Source: Cylindrodendrum hubeiense
Taxonomy: Eukaryota; Ascomycota; Sordariomycetes; Hypocreales; Nectriaceae
Assembly (NCBI GenBank): GCA_014621425.1
Contig: JAANBB010000046.1
Coordinates: 62,001 to 126,000, forward strand
Reading direction: 5' to 3'
Length of the DNA stretch: 64,000 nucleotides
Made by a program: the position numbers and the translations under genes. This document shows positions 15,835 through 31,560 of the stretch, piece by piece. The notes under the pieces were generated by a model. That model was not told the DNA's origin. It made no database searches and saw nothing but the letters and a program-made list of their open reading frames with translations. Position 1 is the first letter of the stretch. Each line of letters opens with the position of its first letter.

Positions 15835-18800
15835 ATGTCGCTCGCTATCCCCGCTGCCACACGGGACGGCGCTTGGGGATATTTGGTGAATATGTCCCAT
15901 GGGAAACAAGGCGGAGAACGCCTGACTCTCGGAGGAGTCCGGCCAAGAACCGACTCATCGCGAGCAAGAGAAGAACCACGTCTCGACCTCAGGTTCAAGA
16001 CACGCAAGGAGGCAGTGCCGAGTGATTTGAGCGGTGGTGACGACCTGAACATCAATGAAGGGTACAGTCTGATAGGACGCGACATTGATTGTGGTGAGTC
16101 TGAAAAGAACTCATGTTTGATAGGTGGACACATGACTAAAACAAACTCACAGACATCATCTTCACGGGAGATTTTGTCTCGAAGCGGCACTGTCTTCTGT
16201 TTCCCATTAGCAAGGAGGGTCAGATAGTTGTCATATTGCGGAATCTGTCCACCAACGGTACCCTGGTAAACGGGAAATCTCTTAGGTTCTCTAAGATGAA
16301 ACAGCTCACAGCCGGGGATCGGATTTCAATATCTCCTGATATTGAACTGGTTTTCTCACCCTCAACGCATCTTCTCCCCTACCGATTCCATGACAAATAT
16401 TCCTACTGGGAATGCTTCAGGAAAGGTCGATTCGCAAATGCTTACCTGTGTTCATCACGACTAGGCTTTGGCGAATTTGCCGTTAAATTTCGAGCAACTC
16501 CCCACCCTGGAACGCTAGATTCGAGGTCAAATCTAATCCTCATGGGACTTCGACACCCAAATATAGTGACCATTCGGGAAGCCTTTGCAGAGAACGGCCA
16601 GATGGTTTACGTCACAGAGTTTATCCCCGGCGGCGACCTGTTCAACTTCATTACTTTGAAGCAGAAGTTAAGTGAGCTTGAAACTGGCAAGATATTTCGG
16701 CAAATCTTTGATGCCATCAAATTCCTTGTATGAATAATACCCATCTCTCGACATACATATACTGAAGGTCGCAGCATTCCCGCAACATTGTTCATCGCAA
16801 CATCAAACCGGAAACCATCCTTTTGGTTGATAGCACAAGTCTTCATGTTAAAATTGGTTGTTTCAACTCGGCTACCTACATCCTTCCTAATGCTACACTC
16901 GACGATAAATGTGGGACCCCGAGTTATTTAGCTCCTGAGGTAATCCAAGACAGCAAACATCGGCACTATGGGAAAGAAGTCGATATTTGGTCTTTGGGAG
17001 TCGTTATGTACATCTGTCTCTGCGGGTTTCTCCCATTTTCTGATGAACTTTACTTGACAACAGTTCCCTTCACCCTGTCACAACAGATCCAGAGCGGCAG
17101 ATTCGACTACCCGTCGCCGTATTGGGACTCGGTTGGCGATACAGCCCGTATGTACCCAAGGCTCCCCGTTTGTTTCATGACCTACTCACACTGATATAGT
17201 TGATTTGATTGATTCAATGCTTGTTGTGGACCCTGAAAAAAGATTCACAGTGGACCAGTGCTTAACGCACCCTTGGCTCGTCTCTCACGACGATAGGTCT
17301 GGCTCTAAAACATTCCTAGAACAAACCCCACCAAGTTCGCCACGTCTTGAAACGCCCCTACTGGCAAAAAGCTGGCGCCCCGAAACTTCCCCACATAAAG
17401 AACTTCCTAAGACAGCTGACGCTGAGGAATCGGTACTGCCGCTTTTTAGCCGTACTGATTCATCATCATATGGCGGCCCTCTCTATGAAGCATCATATGA
17501 AGGCGACGAGAGGACCGTGCAGATACTGATTAAGCAAGATGCAGATGTCAATGCCAAGCGTGGCGAATATGGCAAAGCCCTCCAGGCTGCATCTATCGGA
17601 GGCCATGTCAAGATTGTGCAGATACTGATTGAGCAAGGTGCGGATGTCAATGCTACGGGTGGCGTATATGGCAACGCTCTCCAGTGCGCATCTTTCTTAG
17701 GCCATGACAAGGTTGTGCAGATACTGATTGAGCAAGGTGCGGATGTCAATGTGCAGGGTGGTATATGTGGCAACGCTCTCCAAGCTGCATTATCTCGTGG
17801 CCATGGAAAGATTGTGCAGATACTAATTCAGCATGGCGCAAATGCCAATACTCCCGGCGGCACATCTTATAATACGCAGCCTTCTACCAACTCCATGCCA
17901 TCGAAGGAGCCAAAAGGCAAAGAACCCATGGAAAGCTCGTCTCTGAGATTCAATCCTTCACAGGAACCTCGTTCAAATTTTGAAACCTACCCAGCCGCTT
18001 CCAACAGCCGATCCGGCATCGTAAAAGTCCGTCGGCCATGGGTTCCAGTCCCAACCAGTAATGTACAACGCACTCGAGGAAGGGACCAAGATGAAAATGA
18101 AGAGGACAAGTATGTGCCTTGCTCGGTAGGCTATCGTACAGGCTATATGACTGACTCTTTGCTCAGATACAACATCACCAGAAGCGAAGACCTTCCCACA
18201 AGGACTATTGGTGCGGTGAAAAGGGTAAGAGAAGGCAGTGCGGTAGGAGCTCGTTTAAGTAAAGAGGATCGACAGAAGTCAAGTTCCCGATCCGAATGGC
18301 GCCGTGCCATTGGATCTCAGGCGAACTCATCTGAAGGATCAACATCGCACCGCAACACAGGCGAGGATGATTTCCTATCCGGAGGTTCCCAGGCCGGTGT
18401 TGAAAGGAGATCCAACCGATCCGTAAAGGCCACAAAGGGGGGCGAGGCGTGGAACTCTTCAAGGATACATCCACCCTCCCTATCTTCCTTTACCGAGCCA
18501 GTAAATATGGTGCCAACACAGGAGTCGGTATCCGTAAAACTAAGTGAGTTGTCAGAGGAGGCTCGAGATGACTTAGAGTTGGACGATTTGGGTGATAGAG
18601 GCGTTTTCTGGACTTTCACACCTGGGGAAACCCCAGAAGAACAGATTCCACTGGTTGTCGACGGATACCCTGTTGTCATCCCAGTTCGCTATCAATATCC
18701 CCTGATAGCCATTGCATCACCTCCTCCGGATCCACATCCCCATATAATCTCCACTACCGACTACTTACCCGATGGCGTCATTTCAGAGATATTCGCTACA

Positions 18801-20159
18801 TTTACCGAAGCCATTGGGTTTTATCTCCTAATTAATGGATATCTCCAGATCATTGTACCCGAAGATTTCGACTACGAGAGTAGCCTCTCAAAACTACCCA
18901 ACGAGTTTGGAGGTCTCAAAGTCAGCTTCATTACTCAGTCCTTACTTCCAACAGCAGGTGATCCAGGGTCTACAGCGACGGCCTCTTCTACAGCACAGTC
19001 AAGTTCTAGCACGGCTGCGGCAAGTTTGACAACTGTAGCAGGAACACACTCAACTGAACCTTCATCAACGATAAATCTTCCAATCAGAACGCCAGCAAGA
19101 CCAATCAATCAAGCTGAAACAGAGAATTTCAAGAGATTTTATGGCAGCACTATCCGAGCTGTCGTGAAAGGCGTCAAATCCAAAGAACTTTTTGAAGGAA
19201 AGATTGGTGTGTTGCTTTCCCCAGTAGGAAGTGATGCGAGATACGCAACTGTGTCGACACATGTCTTTTCAAATGCATGCAATGTTCCTAAGATCAGATC
19301 CATGCAAATCGCAGACTGGATTGACTTTGTGAGCGTTCTGTCTACGAGTCGCTTGACCGAAGTAAGTAATGCCAGGAGGCACATTATCCCCTCCCCCGTC
19401 GCATGTGCGTGGTTAACTCCGGTCCTGTAGCTGGGAAATTTGGTCAAGGTTTTCGATCCTTGCCCCCAATCCTTTCCTATTGGATTTACCTCCGATGTAA
19501 GCCTTGTCGATATTAGTAAGATTTCAATTGCGGCCCTTCGTTCCACCGCTGGACCCGAACCTCCGACAATACAGTGGTTGGATCAACACAACTGGATGAA
19601 CATCAAGTACAATTCCAGTAACCTAGTGCTACTGGATGGAGAGCCCAGGGAAGCCAAGAGCATTGGTATTGTAGACAGTCGTTGTCAGGTATGCAATCAG
19701 CTCGAGTTATTTTCACGTCCTCTGGACTGTGTTTCAATACTACGTACTAACAACCTCATTTAGATGGTCGGCCAGGGGATTTTCCGCACTCAACAACAAT
19801 CCAAACGCCGCTCATTTTTTAGTGCGATGTCTAGCAGCTCAGTGGACCCAAAAGACGACCCCATGACTTGGACCAGCTTGGTGGCAAGGTCAATACTGTA
19901 TCGTGTACGCCAGGATTTCCACATCAGAGGTGGCCAAAGCGGCACTCCAGTTTGCGTAATGGAAGAGGGGCCTGACGTTAATGCTGCAAAGGTAGCAAAG
20001 GTAGCAGGGTTTGCATCGTTTGTGCAGATGGTGTCGGATGTACAGAGATATGATATGGAGGGTGATAAGCTGTACAAGAGACTGCAGGAGGGAAGGGTGG
20101 CGTTTTATGGTGCTTTCCAAGTGCCAAATGAATTAAGAGATGAGTATCGTATTATATAA
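15835..20159 (+). CDS. FHA domain - pseudokinase - ankyrin repeats - serine-protease-like fusion protein
   Basis: Exons 15835-16093, 16153-16727, 16775-17147, 17200-19361, 19431-19688 and 19764-20159 give 1,340 residues. Residues ~75-155 form an FHA domain (Gly81-Arg82, Ser96, His99, NLSTNGT at 117-123), which by family binds phosphothreonine. Residues ~168-425 form a CAMK/Rad53-like kinase fold with Lys198, a GTPSYLAPE activation segment and DIWSLGV. The catalytic residues are lost: HRD reads HRN (Asn287), KPEN reads KPET and DFG reads CFN (Cys307), so it is probably a pseudokinase. Four 33-residue ankyrin repeats follow (~500-630), then a long Ser-rich disordered part. The last 280 residues hold His1090 (STHVFS), Asp1145 (TSDVSLVDI) and Ser1268 (GGQSGTPV) in the order of a PA-clan serine protease; this domain call is tentative. 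An in-frame 57-base stretch (18110-18166) looks like an intron; if spliced, the product is 1,321 residues. Confidence 0.85.
17517..17912 (+). repeat. Four tandem 99-base coding repeats (ankyrin units)
   Basis: The phrase gtgcagatactgatt recurs at 17517, 17616 and 17715, exactly 99 bases apart, with a close variant at 17814. Each unit encodes one 33-residue ankyrin repeat (VQILIEQGADVNA...). The second and third units are identical over about their first 37 bases, more than protein selection alone requires, pointing to recent duplication or conversion. Confidence 0.9.
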
Positions 20160-20286: not shown

Positions 20287-21348
20287 TTAAGCATCCAGCT
20301 GTTCCAGCAAGCTTGTGGGCGGAGCGAAGAAGGTTGATCCAGTCACCGGCGTTGAGAAATCGAGGATCCTATCATGCAGCCCAGGGGGGTTTCCGATAAA
20401 CATGCGTTCCATCATCCCCTCAATAACCCAAAGCTTGCGTGAGTATCCGATAAAGTAAGTACCGAACTCGTCGGAACCCGGAGATCCGAATGGCATGTTG
20501 TCCCGCAGAATGTCGTGCTCATTGCCATTTTTGTCTTCTAGCGTCGCCAGTGTCTTGTGCGATTGCTGCTGGCCCTCCTCGGCATCGTCCAGCTCAATGT
20601 TGTCAATCTTAGTCCGGCCGATGATGGTTTCTTGCCGTTCTGTCGAAAGGGCTTGCCACGATTTCAAATTGTGGAGGTATTTCTGAACGACGATGTAGCT
20701 GCCTCCTGCGGCATATGTGTCGTCTGACTCTGTAATGAGGACAGTATCCTGCACGTCGGGGCCCACTGGATTTGCGGTGCCATCAATGAAACCTAGAAGG
20801 TCTCTGGCATCGAAATATCGGAATCCAACAGTCGTGTCCTCCATCTTCACTGCGTCTCCAAGCAGATCCATTAGCTGCCGCTCAAACTCGAAACAAAAGT
20901 CACGCCTCTCAGATCGAATATGAAACAGCAAATCTCCTGGAGTCGATACAGCAGTATGCGTGGCGCCTCGCACCTCAGGGAAAGCATGCAACTCGGCGGG
21001 TCTGGGGAGCTTCATGAGGCTATCCCAGACGGAGGCTCCAATTCCGACGATGCATGTGAGGTTGGCGGCGGGATGCCGGATGGAGACGTTCTTGATAATG
21101 CCATTGACCTTAGATAGGGCCTTCCGGATCTTCCTGATCGAGTCGGATGTATGTGTGGCAGAGACAACAAGGAAGGTTGCCGATGTGGTGAGGGGTGCGT
21201 CCACGGGTTGAGGATTCATGATCGACGTTGCCTTTTGGCTAATAGACCGTGATTGTAGGTAAAAGATCCTTGTTGAAGGGCGTGGAATGCTAGCTATTCT
21301 TGGAAACAGGAGTACTCGAGGGCACGTTCTGGATAGCGTGATGGCCAT
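20287..21348 (-). CDS. DyP-type heme peroxidase with probable mitochondrial presequence
   Basis: A single exon of 353 residues. The start at 21348 (MAITLSRTCPRV) is the first ATG of the frame; codons further upstream in frame are not ATG. About 45 leading residues are rich in Arg and Ser with no acidic residue, as in a mitochondrial targeting peptide. The core has the GXXDG signature (GFIDGTANP), the FHIRSERRDFCFE segment and a C-terminal FIGNPPGLHDRILDFST region. This layout fits the YfeX-like (type B) branch of dye-decolorising peroxidases, which use hydrogen peroxide to oxidise dyes, phenolics or porphyrinogens through heme. An internal ATG (MNPQPVDAP) would give a cytosolic form. The gene converges on the FHA-pseudokinase gene, with only 127 bases between stop codons. 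Confidence 0.92.
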   Translation of the reverse strand: MAITLSRTCPRVLLFPRIASIPRPSTRIFYLQSRSISQKATSIMNPQPVDAPLTTSATFLVVSATHTSDSIRKIRKALSKVNGIIKNVSIRHPAANLTCIVGIGASVWDSLMKLPRPAELHAFPEVRGATHTAVSTPGDLLFHIRSERRDFCFEFERQLMDLLGDAVKMEDTTVGFRYFDARDLLGFIDGTANPVGPDVQDTVLITESDDTYAAGGSYIVVQKYLHNLKSWQALSTERQETIIGRTKIDNIELDDAEEGQQQSHKTLATLEDKNGNEHDILRDNMPFGSPGSDEFGTYFIGYSRKLWVIEGMMERMFIGNPPGLHDRILDFSTPVTGSTFFAPPTSLLEQLDA

Positions 21349-22448
21349 GTGTTGTTGTTTTATCGGTTGGCAATTCAAGGGCGGTTGGAGGTCGAAAACC
21401 CGGCCGCGGCGACTTTATCCAAGTGCGTATTAATGAGGTGGCCAATCCGATGGCGCGTATTACCAGTCCATATTGATGCTAGGGTACCCAAATTGTCTCC
21501 CTTCGCTACGGAGTGTGCATACTGTGGCGAATGACGGGTGTAAGGCTTATAATGCTACCGTACATCCCGCGACAGTAAGCACCCTCTCTCTGCCAGCTCC
21601 CATCAAGCCCCGCAATAGACTATTAGGATCAGGGCTTTCTCACAATTGTGTGAGTGAATGAATGAAAGACTCATATTGTGATGGATAGTCTGAGATGAAG
21701 TAAAGCTACACGAAATTAGACACAAATAATCCGTTTACGCCGTGCTTTTGCGCTGATCCAGGAATTATGATGCTTCATCGGGTAGCGTCGCCGAGAGTCG
21801 CCGAGCTCGCCGGCAAGGCCGGACACTAGCGCGTCATTGCCGCCATAATTCAACCTACGTCATTCTAGATTCACTCAGCGTAAGCCGTAAGCCTGAATAG
21901 TCATTGTGTGATGGTTACCATAATTGACGCGAATGAAAACTGAAGTCTATAGGGTGAACTAACTCGTTTGCTCCTCAATAAATGACTTGGTTGCAGTATG
22001 TGTATACGCTCAGCAAAGGAATAAAGCTTACGCATTGAATTTATGTCTCTTACGGACGCACGAAGATGCCATGGGTTTGACACATTCGGTTATCCTCCCC
22101 AGAAGGTCTGCCATCAGCGAGCTCATCAGAGACAGAGAGTGCCCTGCTGGAGGACTCGCCCCACTGGTTTTCTTATCTCCTTCCTAAATCTAAAACTCCA
22201 TATATTATGCTTCATTATAGGTTTGGCTTCACAGGCCATCCGGTTCTATTTCTCCAATAGCTTGTTTTCTTCTTGTCTCCTACATCGTGTGGTTTATTTT
22301 CTCCTCCTTCGCCCCGTCCAGCCTTTATTACGATTTTGCGTCCAGAAATCGTCTATTTCCCTCCTGTTCTTCGTTGGACTTTTATGACTTTGATATGCCT
22401 TGGTACCGAGAATATCTTAGGCTAAGCAAAATATGTTAGCTTGGTGTT
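21349..22448. other. Intergenic region upstream of the DyP gene
   Basis: About 1.1 kb holding the DyP promoter and the 3' flank of the PHD-finger gene. Open frames here are short and unlike any family I know. Confidence 0.45.
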
Positions 22449-24589
22449 TTAATGAGGGTTGTGCATGGGTAGCACTGTGATTTCATACCCATTTGAGTCC
22501 GTTTGGATCTTGTGCAAGTCCTTTCGGCACATTTCGCAGAAATATTCATCAGGAAGCTCCTCTTCTGAGAATATTCCCATGCAAGCGCCGTGCTGCCAGA
22601 CTTTGCAAATATCGCATTCGATATATAGTCCCTCCATATTCGCGATTTGTTCCGATGTTCTTGGGGGTCCGGGCTGTCCAGCGGGAAGGCCTGGGTATTC
22701 TTCATGACCACATATGCATCGCACGACTTCATCCGCCACATCTGAGCTGTCGTCTTTGGGTGCGTGCCTCGACGCCTGCCTACTTCGAGCGCCAGAAATA
22801 TCCAGCGGTCGGGGATTGCAGCTGTTACAAAGATGTTCAAAATCTTCGCTCAATGCCTGATCGGGGTCCTCGTGATAGTAGCAATCGATATGCTGCCAAG
22901 TGTCACACTTTTCACAGTAAATACTGTTACCATCGTCTTCATGGTTCCCACAGATGCATTTAAATGTGAGGGGATCATCTTCATCAGCTGGTTCTGGCTC
23001 TGAATCAGCGCCAGATGCCTCCTCGTCCGGATTAGTTGGGAGAGCCGACAGAGATATTTCTTCCAGATGACCAGCTAGGTGACGGGTAATTGCTATTTGT
23101 CCTTCCTCTGTAATCTCGAAGCATAATGGACATTCGATTGATTCCCAGTCGGGCTCATAGTGCTCAAGAGCAAGATGGGAGGCCCATTCATTGCGACTGC
23201 GAAAGGCGGGCATACCGCATCTTGTCTCAAGGCATTGGTAGGGTTGGAGATCCGAGTACAAATGGCGTCTAGGATAATAGTGTCAGCCCAAATAAAGTCG
23301 CACAAGCAATGCTAGGAATATCACCCACTTCCATGCGGAATTATTTACGACTCGGACAGCCATACCACAAGCGACGCAGGGAAAAGGCTTTCCTCGTTTC
23401 GCCTCATCCGTGAGTGGTGGAATGCGTGTCTTCTGGCCATCAGAACCGCTGTAGGTCATGACTGTTTCGGCATATGAACTCATCGTTGGTAATGAGGTCC
23501 CTAAGCCCGAGTCCTGGAATTTAGAGCCAGCCACTGTTTCAGCTTCTCCACTGGTTGTTTCCAGCTGCTGTTTCTCAGCAAGCTCATTTTTGACTCTTTG
23601 GTCTTGACAACGGAGATATCTCTCCATGTTCATCTCTCCCAGCTCCGAGGTGAGTGACTTATCGGCTTGAGGGAAGCGCTGCTCGATCTTGTCCTTAAAC
23701 GCTTTTTGAGGTGCCCATGCGGCCTCTTCAAGTTCTTTCTGCTTCTGCGATAGTAGATCAAACACAGGGTTTCTGATCATAGGATCCAGTTCCATTAAGC
23801 ACTGCACATCAGTTCGCAGATCCTGCGCTATTTCGGTGATATCATCTTGCTCAAAATCCAAGGAGCTGTCACTCGAAGAGTCTGAGCTGGCATCAGTTGA
23901 TTCGTGGATGAGATAGGACGCTTCTGCATCCACTGCAGTGAGTCGAAGCCTTAAATCGTCGAGTCTTTCTAATTCGCCTTGAACTACGCAAGGCTTAAGT
24001 CCTACCAAGTACGTTAATCGCCGTTCATTTTCCAGCCGGGCTTTAGTAGTTGCTTTGTGAATGCTAACATATAGTGAAATATTTGAGAATACCAAGATGC
24101 AACGATATCACACAGTGATCACCTACTTTCTGATAATGCATTTGTGATGCTCGATAAAATTCTAAGAGTTGATCTCCGAATGCTCCGTGACTTGGTAAAA
24201 ATATTGTCTAGCGAGCCGCCTCGAACACCCCACGCATCTGACCACAGAACCATGAGGGAATAAGTCCGCTCAAGGCTCATCCGAGTTGACTTTGGGATAT
24301 CTTCATTCTTGGAAATGTGGCGAATCATTTCCTTGTAGAAACTAAGTGCAGCAGCGCAGAGCCGGGCGGCGACACTGATGTCTCCCGACCAAGATTCGGA
24401 TACCGGAGCGTTGGCCTGCCATTCCTGGATAGCCTCGGCGGCATCGCGACGTTCCGCCATCGGGACCATGGTGCGGTCAGCCATTTCCATTCTCGTCATT
24501 CGATTGCTCATCTTGTAAGGCTGAGATGGAAATGGACAAAACCCAGAGTCGCCGAAGGCTGTAAGATAATCGCGTGGCGGGGCAATCAT
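22449..24589 (-). CDS. Zinc-finger protein with two PHD fingers
   Basis: Exons 24589-24123, 24063-23329 and 23268-22449 give 673 residues; introns are 59 and 60 bases. The donor of the first intron (GTGATC) is weak, so that junction is uncertain, and a start at 24511 is also possible. The N-terminal ~390 residues are an alpha-helical fungal region with an acidic Ser-rich stretch. Next comes a Cys/His cluster (CVACGMAV, then WxxH, DLQPYQC, CPLC, RHLAGH), typical of fungal C2H2 proteins. Two PHD fingers follow: CICGNHEDDGNSIYC...CDTWQH (~505-555) and CICGHEEYP...CDICKVWQH (~590-655). PHD fingers of this Cti6/Bye1-like kind commonly read histone H3 tails, so a chromatin role is likely. Joining to the fungal N-terminal module is unusual. 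It is divergent from the next gene, with 159 bases between starts. Confidence 0.85.
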
Positions 24590-24748
24590 GCCACGGCTCA
24601 AAATAATCCTCGCGTGGAATACCCCGCCTTCAGCCGCACTCCGCTTCCTTCTGACCGCTGCCGCGTCTGATGATCTCTCAACCTGAACGACGTGATTTTA
24701 TCGGTAACGACTTCATTCGGCGAGGATCATTCATGTTGCGCTGCAGAG
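24590..24748. promoter_or_regulatory. Short shared promoter between PHD-finger gene and DUF7580-like gene
   Basis: Only 159 bases separate the two divergent start codons (237 if the PHD gene starts at 24511), so their promoters must overlap. No specific operator was recognised. Confidence 0.45.
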
Positions 24749-26638
24749 ATGGACCCTGTTTCGCTCGTTCTGGGCATCGTTCCTCTTCTCGGCGGCGCTC
24801 TGAAGGTGTACAAATCCACATATTCCAAGCTCAAAACCTTTCGTCATTATTCAAGAGAAGTCGACCGTGTACGAAAGCATTTCGACCGTCAAAGGCAGTT
24901 CTTTCTCAATGAGATTCATCTTGTGCTCCGTTTAGTCTTGGATGACGAAGCCTTGGTTCAGGACATGATTGATGATGGGGTACACAAAAAATGGAAGAGT
25001 CTCAGTTTGGAAACTGCCATGGTCGACTGCTTTGGTAATAACTCCCAATCACTCAAGGAAATCATTGAAGATATTGGCACCATTATCGATAATGTCCAAA
25101 AGGGTCTAGAGTGCTTTAGCTGCTTGGATGAAGAGCGACTACAGGTAAGGTGACCGACGAATCATATCCCCGATACGATTACTGATGATATACCGTTTCT
25201 CCAGGGTGAGCGACTTAAGGACACAGTGAAACGCGTGAGAGATCGCATGAAGATTTCGTTTGACAAATCTAAGTTCGAAAAATGGACTGCTGAACTTCGG
25301 GACGCCAACAACGACCTCAAACTCCTCCGTGAGCAGATGGGTGAGCTTTGCAAGCCGATGATGCGGACACGTCAATTGCATTATCCTTATTCCGTGCAAA
25401 CTTTATACAAACACACATTTAATCACTACCTTAACACAAGGGAGGCCTCAAAAGCACTTCACAAAGCCTTTTGCACTGCCTGGTCGACACCGGATTCTGC
25501 CCACTTTAGACACTTTGTCAGACTCTTCCTCGAGACGAAATCTCGCGACGAGGTCCAGCTAGATCTGGCTATTTCATGTCTGGAGCAAGATTCTATGCAA
25601 GGGCAAGAAAAGACTACATCATCTAGCGGTATACTGATACCTAGTATCGTCCTAGCGAACATGATCACAGTCCACGTCAAGTCAACGGTCACAATGATAC
25701 TGGGTCCAGAATTCCTCGCGGAGTTTCCGGATTTCGACAATACGCAACGAAAGCGGCAGAGAGTTGTGAAATTTGCGGACGAAAAAGCAAGACCCCGGGA
25801 AAGTGATTCGTCATTGTCGGAATCGTCTCCTGTTGAACCTCTGGACCTTCAGAGCACTCAACACTTTTGCTCAGAACTTCTTCCCAAGGGCGTGCATAAC
25901 CAGCTTGAAGTTGTTCGCAAAAGGGGTCGCGAGAAACGAAAGCACGACCCCACATGTATTGGGTATATGGGTTCGTGGGCCCAGGATGAGTATCGACACT
26001 CATTTTTCCCATGTTGTGAAGGAGTCTGCAACCCAAATCTTTGCAAGGGAAATATCAAGTCAAAGGGACTGGTACGAATGGATGAGATGCTTGCACGACC
26101 TCGAAGTGAAGAGCTATCCGTCCCAGAGCAACTGCAACTGGCAGCCCGTCTAGTCTCGTTTGTGTTGAGATTCAACTCGACACCATGGCTTGGGGAATGT
26201 TGGGGCCTCCAGGACTTGTACCTGTTCCAGCAAGATTCTGACCTGGCTGCCTCGTTGAAGACGCTGCATATTAATGTCGATTGGGCACAAAGGTCTACGG
26301 GAGAGCTAATGGAGGTGGACTCAGCTAGCGACTCAAGGGCCTTTGAAGACGCAAAGCTGGTTCACGGTATATACGATGCCACGGTTTATAATCTAGGGGT
26401 GGCGCTGTTGTCAATTGGGCGTTGGGAAAGGTTTGACTCTAATGATGTCCTACGCGTTCGCCGGATGGCATCTCAGGCATGTCCACTTGGAACCAAGTAC
26501 CAGGAGATGACCCAGAAAGTTATCGAGTGTGACTTTGGCTGTGGCAAAGACCTAAGTAAGTATCGGCTGCAGCAAGCGATATATAACGGAATTTCTCTTG
26601 AGCTAGAGGCTATGATAAATAGCCTCACTCTCAAATAG
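24749..26638 (+). CDS. Fungal DUF7580-like protein (prion-inhibition/HeLo-like N-terminus)
   Basis: Exons 24749-25144 and 25205-26638 with a 60-base intron encode 609 residues. The N-terminus (MDPVSLVLGIVPLLGGALKV) is a hydrophobic helix followed by amphipathic helices. This organisation is seen in fungal proteins with HeLo or prion-inhibition-like N-termini that act in programmed cell death signalling. The C-terminal part (GVALLSIGRWE and a C-terminal helical stretch) matches my memory of the large Pezizomycotina family annotated DUF7580, which looks like a degenerate kinase-like fold. The middle holds a basic, Ser-rich linker (RKRQRVVKFADEKARPRESD). No enzyme residues were recognised. The start at 24749 gives the canonical MDPVS opening. 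Function is unknown; involvement in self/non-self response is inference from family context. Confidence 0.82.
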
Positions 26639-29220: not shown

Positions 29221-30327
29221 GCCAGGCACGAAAGCCGACGGAAGCGAGACAGAGGAGCGGGAGCAACAAAATGAGAGGCGTTCAAGGACAATTCGAGGCT
29301 CTATTTCGGGTGAGTCAAACAACGACGGCAATAAAATCGTTGACGATGATGACGGAATCAGGATTGAATTCTCAGTTGACTTCCAGGGCAGTTTTCTTAT
29401 CGCGATTAGGCCCAAACAGTGTTTTGCCCCTCATTTGTTGTGGGGCCTTACGGAACTAGACTAAACCCATTTCCGTAAAACCGATGCTGCTGTGACGTAC
29501 TTGCAGATGGGAACAGTATGTGAGCTCGTACTTTACTTCGACCAAGAATCACAAGCCAAATACATTAAGTTTGATGACCATCTCGCTGCATCTGGGGTGA
29601 CGGGACAATAATATACCAGGCTAGTATTATGTCTTTAATTCAGCTGGTTATGAAGTGCACTCCTGAGTCCCACTACGGGGCCGTGTCTTAGACAAGGAAG
29701 ATAATTTACTACCATAGATAGCAACTTATAGAATGAATCAATAAACCAGTACGACTGACTAGTGCTGGATATTTTCTACATTATGCTGGTGATGATTAAC
29801 ATATGTCGTATCGCGAAAAGTAGACCCGGGGCAACAATAGCAGCACATTTGAGTAGTAAGGCGTCGCGGTAGTGGAGGCATCTTTACATTTCGCATGAGC
29901 CTGTATGGCTTTGAACAGCAGCAGCAATACAGTGTGTTTACCAATCGAGTCGGTTCTACGTCGTCAAAATAATGCATAATCCCGATGCGATTTATGCCAC
30001 CATCATTTTGACCTGATTGGCCCCCGACTTCATATTTCACATGCTATCGTACAGTGCCAAACACGCCGGCCAGTCCATGGCCCAATCAACACGAGCAAAA
30101 CAGCTCCGCTTTCCAGACGCGACGCCCAGAAAAGTGGTTGGGCACCAAATATTGCCACGTCATGAAAAGCGGTGAAGAGGAGTGTCTGGCAGATGTCAGA
30201 TTCCTACCTGCTCCCCAATCTTGTGCTTCTTGATCGATGCACGGCCTGATAGTTCAGTCATTTTGTTCCTATATTTGCCGTTTAGGCGATTCAAACCCCT
30301 CCACTCAGTCGCTCATTCCAAATCACC
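29221..30327. other. Divergent intergenic region
   Basis: About 1.1 kb between the divergent antiporter gene and the next plus-strand gene, holding both promoters. No other gene recognised. Confidence 0.5.
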
Positions 30328-31560
30328 ATGGGCGTCAAAGACTTGTCCGAATGGATGATCAACAACAAGATCCTTCGGGAGAAGGCTGTTAAGAAGGTCA
30401 CCGACATGATTGAGCAAGCCGTACCGCTTGTCAGGACACTCCAAGCAGGATATCACCTTCTTGAATCCGGAGAGGCAGTTCATAATGTGAATAACGCGGC
30501 TGCGACTTTGAACCACTTCATCCCTGTCATGCAAGTCATGGGCAAGTCGATCAGCGACAGCGCAAAGATATTTACGTACTTCAATGTGGCCGCACTCACT
30601 ATCGGAATCGGCGCCAATGTAGTGCCGACCTACCAGGGAGTCCAGGTTCTCCAACTTATAGCAGCCAGGCTGAAGGACATCTCAACAAGCCTTGCCGCCC
30701 AAACTGCCCTTGTCGCCCAAAAGGAATTCCCACAATATGTCTACGAAATGATTCGAGAGCGCCTCGGCCAGACCTCTGACGACAAGACTTGCGACCACTT
30801 GTTTTTCGTCTATCATCCCGATGACGACTGGTACCCCAAGTTCTATCACCTTCTTGAAAAGAATCCACCAGGCCCTCGATTTTGTGGGTATACCAACCAG
30901 ATCGATACCATTTTCATTTTCATGCTGGCGGTTAGACGACGAATCCAAGAAAAAGAGCGCCGGGCCGAGGAAAAAGGACGACCAAAACGACCGACAAAGC
31001 TGCACCTCATCATCCCGGCATACCAACCTATCCTCATCCTTGAAGCGCTGAAGATCCCGGAGGAAATCGGCGACTTTGTTATGGAGGGCCGAATCAACAG
31101 CAATACCGAGTTTGTCTGGCTAAACTTGCCCGAGGAACAGAGACACTATGTCTTGGGCATTGGGCATTGGACTCCTCCCACTCTGGGATGGTGGGACTGG
31201 AGCATGACCAAGGTTGGCATGGCCGAAGAGCCGCCTGTCCTACGTGCGCCAAGAGTCTTAGGTACCAGCCAGCAAAAGGACGAAGACGAAGACGAACGAG
31301 TCTCTGTGAACAGCGAAGACAGTGGCTACGATGCTCCCGACGACACCGCTTTGACTGGTCAGGGGATGATGTCAGATCCTGGACCAAGTGCTGGTTATCC
31401 AGGGCCTAGCGGGGAATCAAGTCGGCACGATGCGACGCCAGTTCACCACCGCCGCCGACGGAAGCACAAAAAGCCTTCAAGTAAGGAGCAGGGCGCAAGT
31501 AAAGGGAGAAGTCGGCGTGGGAGTGATTCGGCCTCGGTTAATCCTTGGTCTGGGTCATAG
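30328..31560 (+). CDS. Uncharacterised fungal protein with central hydrophobic helix and basic tail
   Basis: One exon of 410 residues, ATG in a good context (accATGG). The N-terminal half is helical, with a hydrophobic segment near residues 85-105 (VAALTIGIGANVV) followed by an amphipathic helix (LIAARLKDISTSLAAQ). This arrangement could span or bind a membrane. A second, more globular part contains CDHLFFVYHPDDDWYPKF and VWLNLPEEQRHYVLG. The last ~110 residues are acidic, then Ser/Gly-rich, and end in a strongly basic stretch (HHRRRRKHKKPSSK) that could act as a nuclear signal or bind nucleic acid or phospholipid. I recall similar single-exon proteins from sordariomycetes without known function. 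Confidence 0.8.
   Translation: MGVKDLSEWMINNKILREKAVKKVTDMIEQAVPLVRTLQAGYHLLESGEAVHNVNNAAATLNHFIPVMQVMGKSISDSAKIFTYFNVAALTIGIGANVVPTYQGVQVLQLIAARLKDISTSLAAQTALVAQKEFPQYVYEMIRERLGQTSDDKTCDHLFFVYHPDDDWYPKFYHLLEKNPPGPRFCGYTNQIDTIFIFMLAVRRRIQEKERRAEEKGRPKRPTKLHLIIPAYQPILILEALKIPEEIGDFVMEGRINSNTEFVWLNLPEEQRHYVLGIGHWTPPTLGWWDWSMTKVGMAEEPPVLRAPRVLGTSQQKDEDEDERVSVNSEDSGYDAPDDTALTGQGMMSDPGPSAGYPGPSGESSRHDATPVHHRRRRKHKKPSSKEQGASKGRSRRGSDSASVNPWSGS

Follow-up and report, generated by a model that had tools for sequence, protein, structure and literature searches.

One gene on the forward strand of the window, the whole 64,000-nucleotide stretch of Cylindrodendrum hubeiense DNA that was analyzed, is predicted to encode a 1,340-residue protein that joins an FHA domain, a CHK2-type pseudokinase, four ankyrin repeats, and a C-terminal module ending in a putative trypsin-like serine protease. 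The protein may be an intracellular sensor–executioner that lacks a nucleotide-binding domain and in which a dead CHK2 copy would be the bait, the ankyrin repeats would carry recognition, and the protease would be the output. We regard the case for this reading as evenly balanced. The features are as follows.

15835..20159, + strand: whole gene, six coding exons, 1,340 aa (predicted splice model with one terminal stop)
15835-16093, 16153-16727, 16775-17147, 17200-19361, 19431-19688, 19764-20159, + strand: coding exons (predicted splice model)
16069..16331, + strand: FHA domain, residues 79-146, split by intron 16094-16152 (Pfam PF00498, E 9.6e-14; motif alignment)
16422..17279, + strand: CHK2-type pseudokinase, residues 177-429, split by introns 16728-16774 and 17148-17199 (Pfam PF00069, E 1.4e-53; tree clade with the genome's own CHK2-like gene, 97/99)
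16793..16801, + strand: HRN replacing the catalytic HRD, residues 285-287 (motif alignment)
16859..16867, + strand: CFN replacing DFG, residues 307-309 (motif alignment)
17469..17864, + strand: four ankyrin repeats of 99 nt, residues 493-624 (Pfam Ank, E 3e-20; repeat comparison)
18110..18166, + strand: probable additional intron, a frame-neutral 57-nt GT-AG stretch (sequence; absent from the public model of the gene, P0070)
18528..18962, + strand: module part A, a conserved companion domain, residues 846-990 (alignment with 22 relatives; model of relative P0026)
18963..19124, + strand: Ser/Thr-rich linker, residues 991-1044 (low-confidence stretch in the relative's model)
19125..20156, + strand: module part B, by prediction a trypsin-like double beta-barrel serine protease domain, residues 1045-1340 (P0026 model, fold comparison)
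19362-19430 and 19689-19763, + strand: introns inside part B (splice model)
19260..19262, + strand: candidate catalytic His1090 (STH motif); His in 22/22 rows with a letter and in 58/60 rows of the larger alignment (one gap)
19494..19496, + strand: candidate catalytic Asp1145 (DVSLV); 19/19 rows with a letter and 43/44 with a letter in the larger alignment (16 gaps)
19938..19940, + strand: candidate nucleophile Ser1268 (GGQSGTP); 17/17 rows with a letter and 39/39 with a letter in the larger alignment (21 gaps)

Origin of the FHA-kinase part and the ankyrin block

The motif alignment shows that the phosphothreonine-site residues of the FHA domain (Arg, Ser-x-x-His, and Asn), which we take to be those that bind phosphothreonine, are all present. 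The kinase differs from an active enzyme in the HRN and CFN motifs, and further by Thr in place of the catalytic-loop Asn and Arg in place of the first Gly of the glycine loop. The FHA domain and the pseudokinase proposed in the initial annotation are therefore borne out, the first by its Pfam match and the second by these motif changes. That annotation had also described a phosphothreonine reader and a scaffold. The FHA domain is there, but the tree and the introns identify a decayed CHK2-type copy instead of a generic phospho-reader.

An intact CHK2-like gene is located on contig C663 of the same genome, and its kinase is 60% identical to the window kinase over 262 residues. The three introns of the FHA-kinase part match those of the C663 gene in position and phase (3/3; splice sites predicted in both). 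The kinase tree included the genome's own CHK2-like gene and no named CHK2, and it places the FHA/CHK2 kinases linked to the module in one clade (98/96) within the CHK2-like clade (97/99). The DFG Asp is lost in 6/6 module-linked kinase copies, which count as five distinct ones because P0005 and P0006 are identical over the kinase, and it is kept in the C663 kinase and in the kinase of an NLR-type gene in the same genome. Judged from sequence, the FHA-pseudokinase descends from a CHK2-type gene with its introns, and the window kinase is catalytically dead by motif, so it is derived from CHK2 yet would not be a checkpoint kinase. A decayed CHK2-type copy points to a bait rather than a scaffold. 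The host-derived, decayed domain of an integrated decoy is present, but its carriage by an NLR is not: with an E limit of 1, Pfam found no NB family (NACHT/NB-ARC/STAND) in the window protein, which is thus not classed as an NLR. By analogy, the window protein would work like an NLR integrated decoy but is not classed as one.

The ankyrin repeats, also called in the initial annotation, were recovered by Pfam. Repeat pairs are identical at 12-24 of 33 aa, and this only moderate likeness contrasts with the high similarity reported for the arrays of some fungal NLRs. Repeats 2 and 3 are alike at 83/99 nt and their codons differ by nine nonsynonymous and two synonymous changes. These differences are too few to support a claim of diversifying selection.

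The C-terminal module and its partners

The fold evidence for the window protein comes via the predicted structure of P0026, a relative that is 64% identical in the module. The model was built from 60 rows drawn from the 80 retrieved proteins and was usable. Part A is mostly a high-confidence alpha/beta segment in this model, and part B has the double beta-barrel trypsin fold of the PA clan, with the candidate His, Asp, and Ser each adjoining a strand and following one another in the PA-clan order. Fold matches to the model include FAM111A, alpha-lytic protease, NAL1, and factor B, with 6-16% identity among the matches listed, and the Foldseek TM-scores are low (TMq at most 0.27 among the 50 matches listed). 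The structure prediction supports a trypsin-like protease fold with an assembled triad in part B. The initial annotation had proposed a trypsin-like domain here and named a non-protease C-terminal fold as the result that would count against it; the model of the relative favored the protease fold, and the His-Asp-Ser order is conserved. An earlier structure model of P0004 (17 rows) was poor, with a mean pLDDT of 49.7 and PDB matches essentially on the kinase part.

Sequence searches gave no family assignment. No Pfam family matched window residues 1045-1340 at E up to 1, and the window protein had no S8 or CHAT protease Pfam match. When 60 module proteins were scanned with an E limit of 0.5, the matches listed (25 of the 68 Pfam families, every one with two or more matching members included) contained no trypsin family, and none was found in four module members at E up to 10; the module is therefore not placed in a named family. 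Against the PDB, phmmer and profile searches remained without a meaningful match (best E 0.34 and 0.7). In the proteins scanned, the module had no significant match to a Pfam, NCBIfam, or PADLOC model (for Pfam over 60 members, among the matches listed). PADLOC matches to the N-terminal half fell on the kinase and ankyrin stretches (25 of 36 listed). A viral fold library returned one match with E below 1e-3, to a 1,415-residue entry with an rmsd of 37; the others were weak and many were polyproteins.

A search with window residues 900-1340 found 22 relatives (best E 2e-135); 80 module proteins were retrieved overall, and 60 were used in the larger alignment and the Pfam scan. The module is joined in other proteins to HeLo-WD40, DUF7779-TPR, ankyrin, EF-hand, DUF7580, or kinase partners. 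The domain order had been presented as undescribed in the initial annotation, but the FHA-kinase-protease-module order also occurs in P0002, P0003, and P0005. P0003, from Ilyonectria robusta, aligns with window residues 14-452 (50% identity) and 873-1209 (69%). The intervening ankyrin block between kinase and module is unique to the window protein among the 80 retrieved. The open-licence literature searched yielded no description of an FHA-pseudokinase-ankyrin-protease or of a fungal trypsin-like receptor module.

These partners bear on the idea of a DNA-damage protease, in which the FHA domain would bring the protease to phosphorylated checkpoint proteins, the protease would act on chromatin proteins, and the pseudokinase would be a docking part and not a bait. 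The human trypsin-like protease FAM111A removes or processes chromatin proteins at replication forks, but the model resembles the trypsin fold in general and not FAM111 specifically. Most module proteins lack a kinase or FHA match (Pkinase 7/60, FHA 4/60), and ankyrin, WD40, or TPR repeats take their place in at least nine of the 80 retrieved proteins, not counting P0070. The N-terminal partners also changed repeatedly: the fewest-changes count of architectures on the module tree is 15 with unassigned short rows left out and 20 with a 'short' label, and four N-terminal labels occur within one clade. The labels are clustered on the tree (0/200 shuffles as low), so partner exchange was repeated but not rampant. 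We consider the DNA-damage protease unlikely.

Slightly less probable still is that the module itself is the sensor or bait, as a protease look-alike or substrate trap, with the output located outside it, perhaps in a partner protein that the FHA-pseudokinase recruits. In the DUF7779-TPR and HeLo-WD40 proteins, the module lies behind the repeats, where a sensor would usually be, and HeLo is itself an executioner domain; the output of those proteins may therefore not come from the module. Part A holds 21/40 invariant columns in ~145 residues compared to 19/40 in the 296 residues of the protease half, which fewer rows reach, and such a concentration is what a binding surface might have. The triad residues are conserved nonetheless (His 58/60, Asp 43/44, and Ser 39/39), which argues against a non-cutting bait, since such a bait should have lost them just as the kinase lost its own catalytic residues. 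Rows P0020-P0022 and P0073, from metagenomes, stop short of the Asp and Ser, and a complete triad is thus not visible in these fusions (the NB part of P0022 was called by eye).

Proposed mechanism and related systems

In the sensor–executioner reading, the FHA-pseudokinase would be a captured, catalytically dead CHK2/PRD-4-type copy serving as bait or CHK2 docking mimic, and its target would be a factor of an intruder or rival aimed at the real kinase. The ankyrin block would be an added, changeable recognition surface. Part A and the flexible linker would hold the trypsin-like protease in check until binding or modification released or clustered the C-terminal module, and the freed protease would then cut a host protein, with a pore-forming cell-death protein as the most plausible substrate. 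We infer the bait function, the release on binding, the substrate, and the cell death, as we do an immune role, the latter by analogy from the partners of the module in other proteins and from published fungal systems. More tentatively, the module may represent a so far undescribed fungal family of execution modules with a trypsin fold, common to many intracellular receptor types, NLR and non-NLR, with one branch without a nucleotide-binding domain (Ilyonectria-type, Diaporthe, Triangularia) wired to a dead CHK2 copy, guarding the DNA-damage checkpoint, and answering interference by proteolysis.

If the sensor–executioner reading is right, a trypsin-fold type joins S8 and CHAT among fungal sensor proteases, CHK2 capture occurred outside NLRs as well, and the decoy idea can be tested cleanly in fungi, since one genome holds the kinase in intact form, a dead copy, and a candidate output. 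The dead CHK2 copy and the candidate output are one protein. Podospora anserina is a classical laboratory model of non-self recognition, and its module relative, P0042, makes genetics in that model possible. For annotation, the module is conserved in 80 retrieved proteins, and no family model was found for it in Pfam, NCBIfam, or PADLOC.

The window protein has an FHA domain and a CAMK-type kinase in common with CHK2, PRD-4, and Rad53, along with the kinase identity and introns shared with the genome's own gene, but its kinase is dead by motif, and ankyrins and a protease module come after it. FAM111A, alpha-lytic protease, NAL1, and factor B have the same predicted double-barrel fold and H, D, S order, but they have other companion domains and no kinase/ankyrin part. 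FAM111 proteases carry N-terminal ubiquitin-like domains before the protease.

One report describes CHK2/PRD-4-like kinases at the C terminus of nine Sordariales NLRs, proposed to be integrated decoys (PMC12258605). These NLRs and the window protein both fuse a CHK2-like kinase of the same parent type with ankyrins in a receptor-like arrangement. Unlike these NLRs, the window protein has retained the FHA domain, carries its kinase near the N terminus, has lost the catalytic residues, and ends in a predicted protease; no NB domain was found in it. Protease-bearing fungal sensors, where the protease lies beside WD40/TPR/ANK or kinase-like domains, are reported to act on gasdermins (PMC12881547). 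The Q2L / HET-Q2-type and CHAT sensors share with the window protein the fusion of a protease to ANK, TPR, WD40, or kinase-like domains (PMC12881547, PMC10197012, PMC10989679). The proteases named for them belong mostly to the S8 subtilases or the CHAT cysteine proteases, whereas that of the window protein is predicted to be trypsin-fold, and they activate gasdermins, with the gasdermin gene expected within about 10 kb, whereas none was found in the C. hubeiense genome with PF04598, a weak test with no fungal positive control. On the modeled fold, the window protein would work like an S8- or CHAT-type Q2L but is not classed as one. Bacterial conflict systems are reported to swap a trypsin-like peptidase among effector positions beside STAND NTPases, FHA, or kinases (PMC8195603); they are prokaryotic and are likened to the window protein by architecture.

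Gene model and genomic context

The initial annotation had the gene as a single phase-consistent unit, and its coordinates proved exact, with a 1,340-residue frame and a single terminal stop. The five introns are all GT-AG and 47-75 nt long. The frame 17181-19430 runs for 749 codons with no interruption and encodes the kinase end, all ankyrin repeats, and the start of the C-terminal module together with the candidate catalytic His; a large part of the fusion is therefore independent of splicing. The public model P0070 (613 aa) starts at the same Met, and 598 of its residues are six exact pieces of the window protein. Window residues 87-224, 260-375, 403-470, and everything after 971 are absent from it, which means that most of the FHA and kinase and the whole protease are missing there. 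These gaps would fit an artifact in which neighboring FHA-kinase and ankyrin-protease genes were joined across a boundary, but this is very improbable because one open 2,162-nt exon connects the kinase end, the ankyrins, and the module up to the His, relatives in other genera fuse the same FHA-kinase and module, and P0070 itself extends from the same Met into the module. Two separate genes were rejected on these grounds.

The genome was searched for module copies with three queries (the window module, P0076, and P0033), and the module matched only at the window locus; local expansion was thus not seen. The P0076 query also matched two other genomic places with its EF-hand part only. The NLR-type gene of this genome, at C290:135578-139696, combines an NPHP3_N NTPase, ankyrins, and a CHK2-like kinase that keeps both HRD and DFG.

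Gene structure and the public model

The initial annotation placed a gene for an FHA - pseudokinase - ankyrin - protease-like fusion at 15835..20159, and these coordinates proved exact to the single base. The six exons encode 1,340 residues with one terminal stop, and Pfam matched the FHA, kinase, and ankyrin domains as claimed. Residues 1045-1340 have no Pfam match.

Features of the window gene (+) and its protein
15835-16093, 16153-16727, 16775-17147, 17200-19361, 19431-19688, 19764-20159 (+): coding exons, splice model
Residues 79-146: FHA domain, Pfam
Residues 177-429: protein kinase domain, Pfam
Residues 493-624: four ankyrin repeat units, Pfam and repeat comparison
Residues about 846-990: part A of the C-terminal module, alignment with relatives
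Between parts A and B: Ser/Thr-rich module linker, alignment with relatives
Residues 1045-1340: module part B, alignment with relatives

Much of the fusion is independent of splice guesses, since the long exon 4 by itself runs from the last part of the kinase through the ankyrins and into the C-terminal module as far as its His. A frame-neutral GT-AG stretch at 18110-18166, left out of the public model, may be a further intron. The four 33-residue ankyrin repeats share 63-83 of 99 nucleotides and 12-24 of 33 amino acids pairwise.

The public model of this gene (P0070; Cylindrodendrum hubeiense G7Z17_g3653) has 613 residues. Of these, 598 are identical to the window protein in six collinear segments, beginning at the same Met. 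Window residues 87-224, 260-375, 403-470, 708-726, 745-776, and everything after 971 are absent. The greater part of the FHA-kinase is therefore missing from P0070, which stops within part A of the module. Surveys of domains in annotated proteomes would thus miss the architecture of the gene.

Descent and decay of the FHA-kinase

Outside the locus, the closest gene of this genome (contig C663) encodes an FHA domain and a kinase with HRD and DFG intact. It is probably the true CHK2/PRD-4 orthologue, judging by its FHA and kinase pair. The C663 and window kinases share 60% identity over 262 residues. All three introns of the window FHA-kinase part match C663 in place and phase, with splice sites assigned by eye in both.

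Introns shared with C663
Intron 1: directly after the FHA Cys codon, phase 1
Intron 2: upstream of the catalytic loop, phase 0
Intron 3: at LDLIDSML, phase 1

A tree of 17 kinases was built with P0001 set as outgroup and no named CHK2. The six module-linked FHA/CHK2 kinases (window, P0002-P0006) form one clade (98/96), which groups at 97/99 with the C663 kinase and the kinase of a same-genome NLR-type gene (contig C290); the tree does not resolve the order among these three. P0001 and P0039 are other kinases on long branches. In the PDB, Chk2 matches the window FHA-kinase over both domains, and CaMK-type kinases score slightly higher. Judged by sequence, the window FHA-kinase descends from a CHK2-type gene.

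The call of a pseudokinase is borne out by the motifs. In the window copy, R replaces the first loop glycine, the HRD Asp has become N and the catalytic-loop Asn T, and DFG reads C-F-N; the VAIK Lys is retained, as are the FHA Arg, Ser-x-x-His, and Asn. The DFG Asp is gone in all six module-linked copies (C in the window copy and P0003; S in P0002, P0005, and P0006; G in P0004) and present in the C663 and C290 kinases. HRD Asp loss is confined to the window copy among the kinases compared by motif, and P0003 lacks the FHA Arg. By these motifs, the window protein carries a dead copy of a CHK2-type kinase.

The C-terminal module and its partners

Searches with window residues 900-1340, an alignment of eight modules, and an Alternaria module returned at least 22, at least 55, and at least 23 proteins, respectively, and at least 80 different proteins when pooled (P0001-P0080). 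Each search scored about 8,000 candidates, so these counts are lower bounds. In the window genome (47.5 Mb, 798 contigs), the module matched at the window locus alone, even with queries that find this locus at 37-38% identity.

Part B is predicted to adopt a trypsin-like protease fold. In the window protein and the first 22 relatives, 40 columns with a letter in at least 14 rows are invariant; in rows with a letter, H1090 is kept in 22/22, D1145 in 19/19, and S1268 in 17/17. Alignment A3 holds 60 of the 80 retrieved proteins, with 20 left out and the window protein not included. There, His is kept in 58/60 (D in P0045, a gap in P0046), Asp in 43/44 rows with a letter (16 gaps; E in P0041, where the Asp segment is apparently missing from the model), and Ser in 39/39 (21 gaps). 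Judging by the sequence ends, many gaps reflect gene models or open frames that break off early, probably at an intron.

The module also follows FHA-CHK2 pseudokinase, ankyrin, and short or unassigned N-termini. DUF7779 is a mark of fungal NLRs.

Other partners of the module
HeLo + WD40: P0020 (scanned); P0021, P0073 (precomputed Pfam)
DUF7779 + TPR: P0022, NTPase-like start called by eye
TPR: P0074, P0075
TPR + ubiquitin: P0080
EF-hand: P0076
DUF7580: P0077
DUF7514: P0008
Clr5: P0011, P0013, P0014
bZIP/PHD-like, below cut-off: P0016

The P0034 start has a P-loop GTPase-like motif (Pfam E 0.21 at best, not significant), and the P0025 N-terminus looks vWA-like by eye, with no significant Pfam match.

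Mapped on a tree of 38 modules, 15 hand-set architecture labels require 20 changes. The least possible is 14, the shuffled mean is 26.2, and none of 200 shuffles was as low; without the ten 'short' rows, 15 changes are needed. Partners were therefore swapped repeatedly, yet the labels still track the tree. One seven-member clade (100/100) carries four N-terminal labels on closely similar modules. The seven FHA-CHK2 labels, counting P0026 and P0040, whose models keep kinase remnants only, all fall within a 13-row clade (100/100), whose other six rows comprise four short forms, an ankyrin form, and a different kinase. Individual architectures may be mistaken, since several relatives are metagenome predictions and several models are cut short; the pattern is drawn from many of them.

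Among the at least 80 retrieved proteins, ankyrins and FHA-kinase occur together in the window protein only; P0012 and P0015 have ankyrins and the module without FHA-kinase. The stretch that separates kinase from module holds a MIT domain in P0002 and an LsmAD match in P0003, which shows that the protein's middle part can be exchanged.

Proposed mechanism and known systems

The proposed mechanism unites two published ideas, possible CHK2-like decoys in Sordariales NLRs and protease-bearing, gasdermin-activating sensors. PMC12258605 describes integrated CHK2-like kinases in Sordariales NLRs as possible decoys. PMC12881547, PMC10197012, and PMC10989679 describe fungal protease-bearing sensors that activate gasdermins; their proteases are mostly of the S8 or CHAT type and can be joined to repeats or kinase-like domains. 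In the window protein, the dead CHK2 copy would serve as bait, the ankyrins would add specificity, and the module protease would be the output, set free once the bait is touched. By analogy, the protein would work like a protease-output decoy receptor. Against the protease as output, the HeLo-WD40 and DUF7779-TPR proteins carry the module at their sensor end, and the full triad was not seen in them. Possibly, the protein is instead a FAM111-like DNA-damage protease.

The window protein is not classed as an NLR, because no NB domain was found in it, as a checkpoint kinase, because its catalytic residues are lost, or as an S8/CHAT Q2L protease. In the open-licence literature covered (including PMC4986451 and PMC9815663), no account was found of this domain order or of fungal receptors with a trypsin-like module. 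Trypsin-like effectors do occur in bacterial conflict systems (PMC8195603).

The product of the NLR-type gene at C290:135578-139696 has a PigL_N-like start (E 0.0022, below cut-off), then an NPHP3_N NTPase and ankyrins, and at its C-terminus a CHK2-like kinase that has kept HRD and DFG. The gene resembles the published Sordariales decoy NLRs; together with the window gene, it gives this genome two examples of CHK2 capture by receptor-like genes.

Neighbors of the window gene
20290-21414 (-): DyP-type peroxidase gene, convergent with the window gene, ends about 130 bases off
22452-23282 (-): PHD-finger protein; P0016 has bZIP/PHD-like segments, below cut-off, ahead of the module
24674-26635 (+), about 4.5 kb downstream: gene that starts PigL_N-like (E 0.024) and ends in a below-cut-off DUF7580 match (E 3.8e-5); in P0077, the module is fused to DUF7580
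30286-31557 (+): gene with a DUF6579 match (E 1.7e-14)
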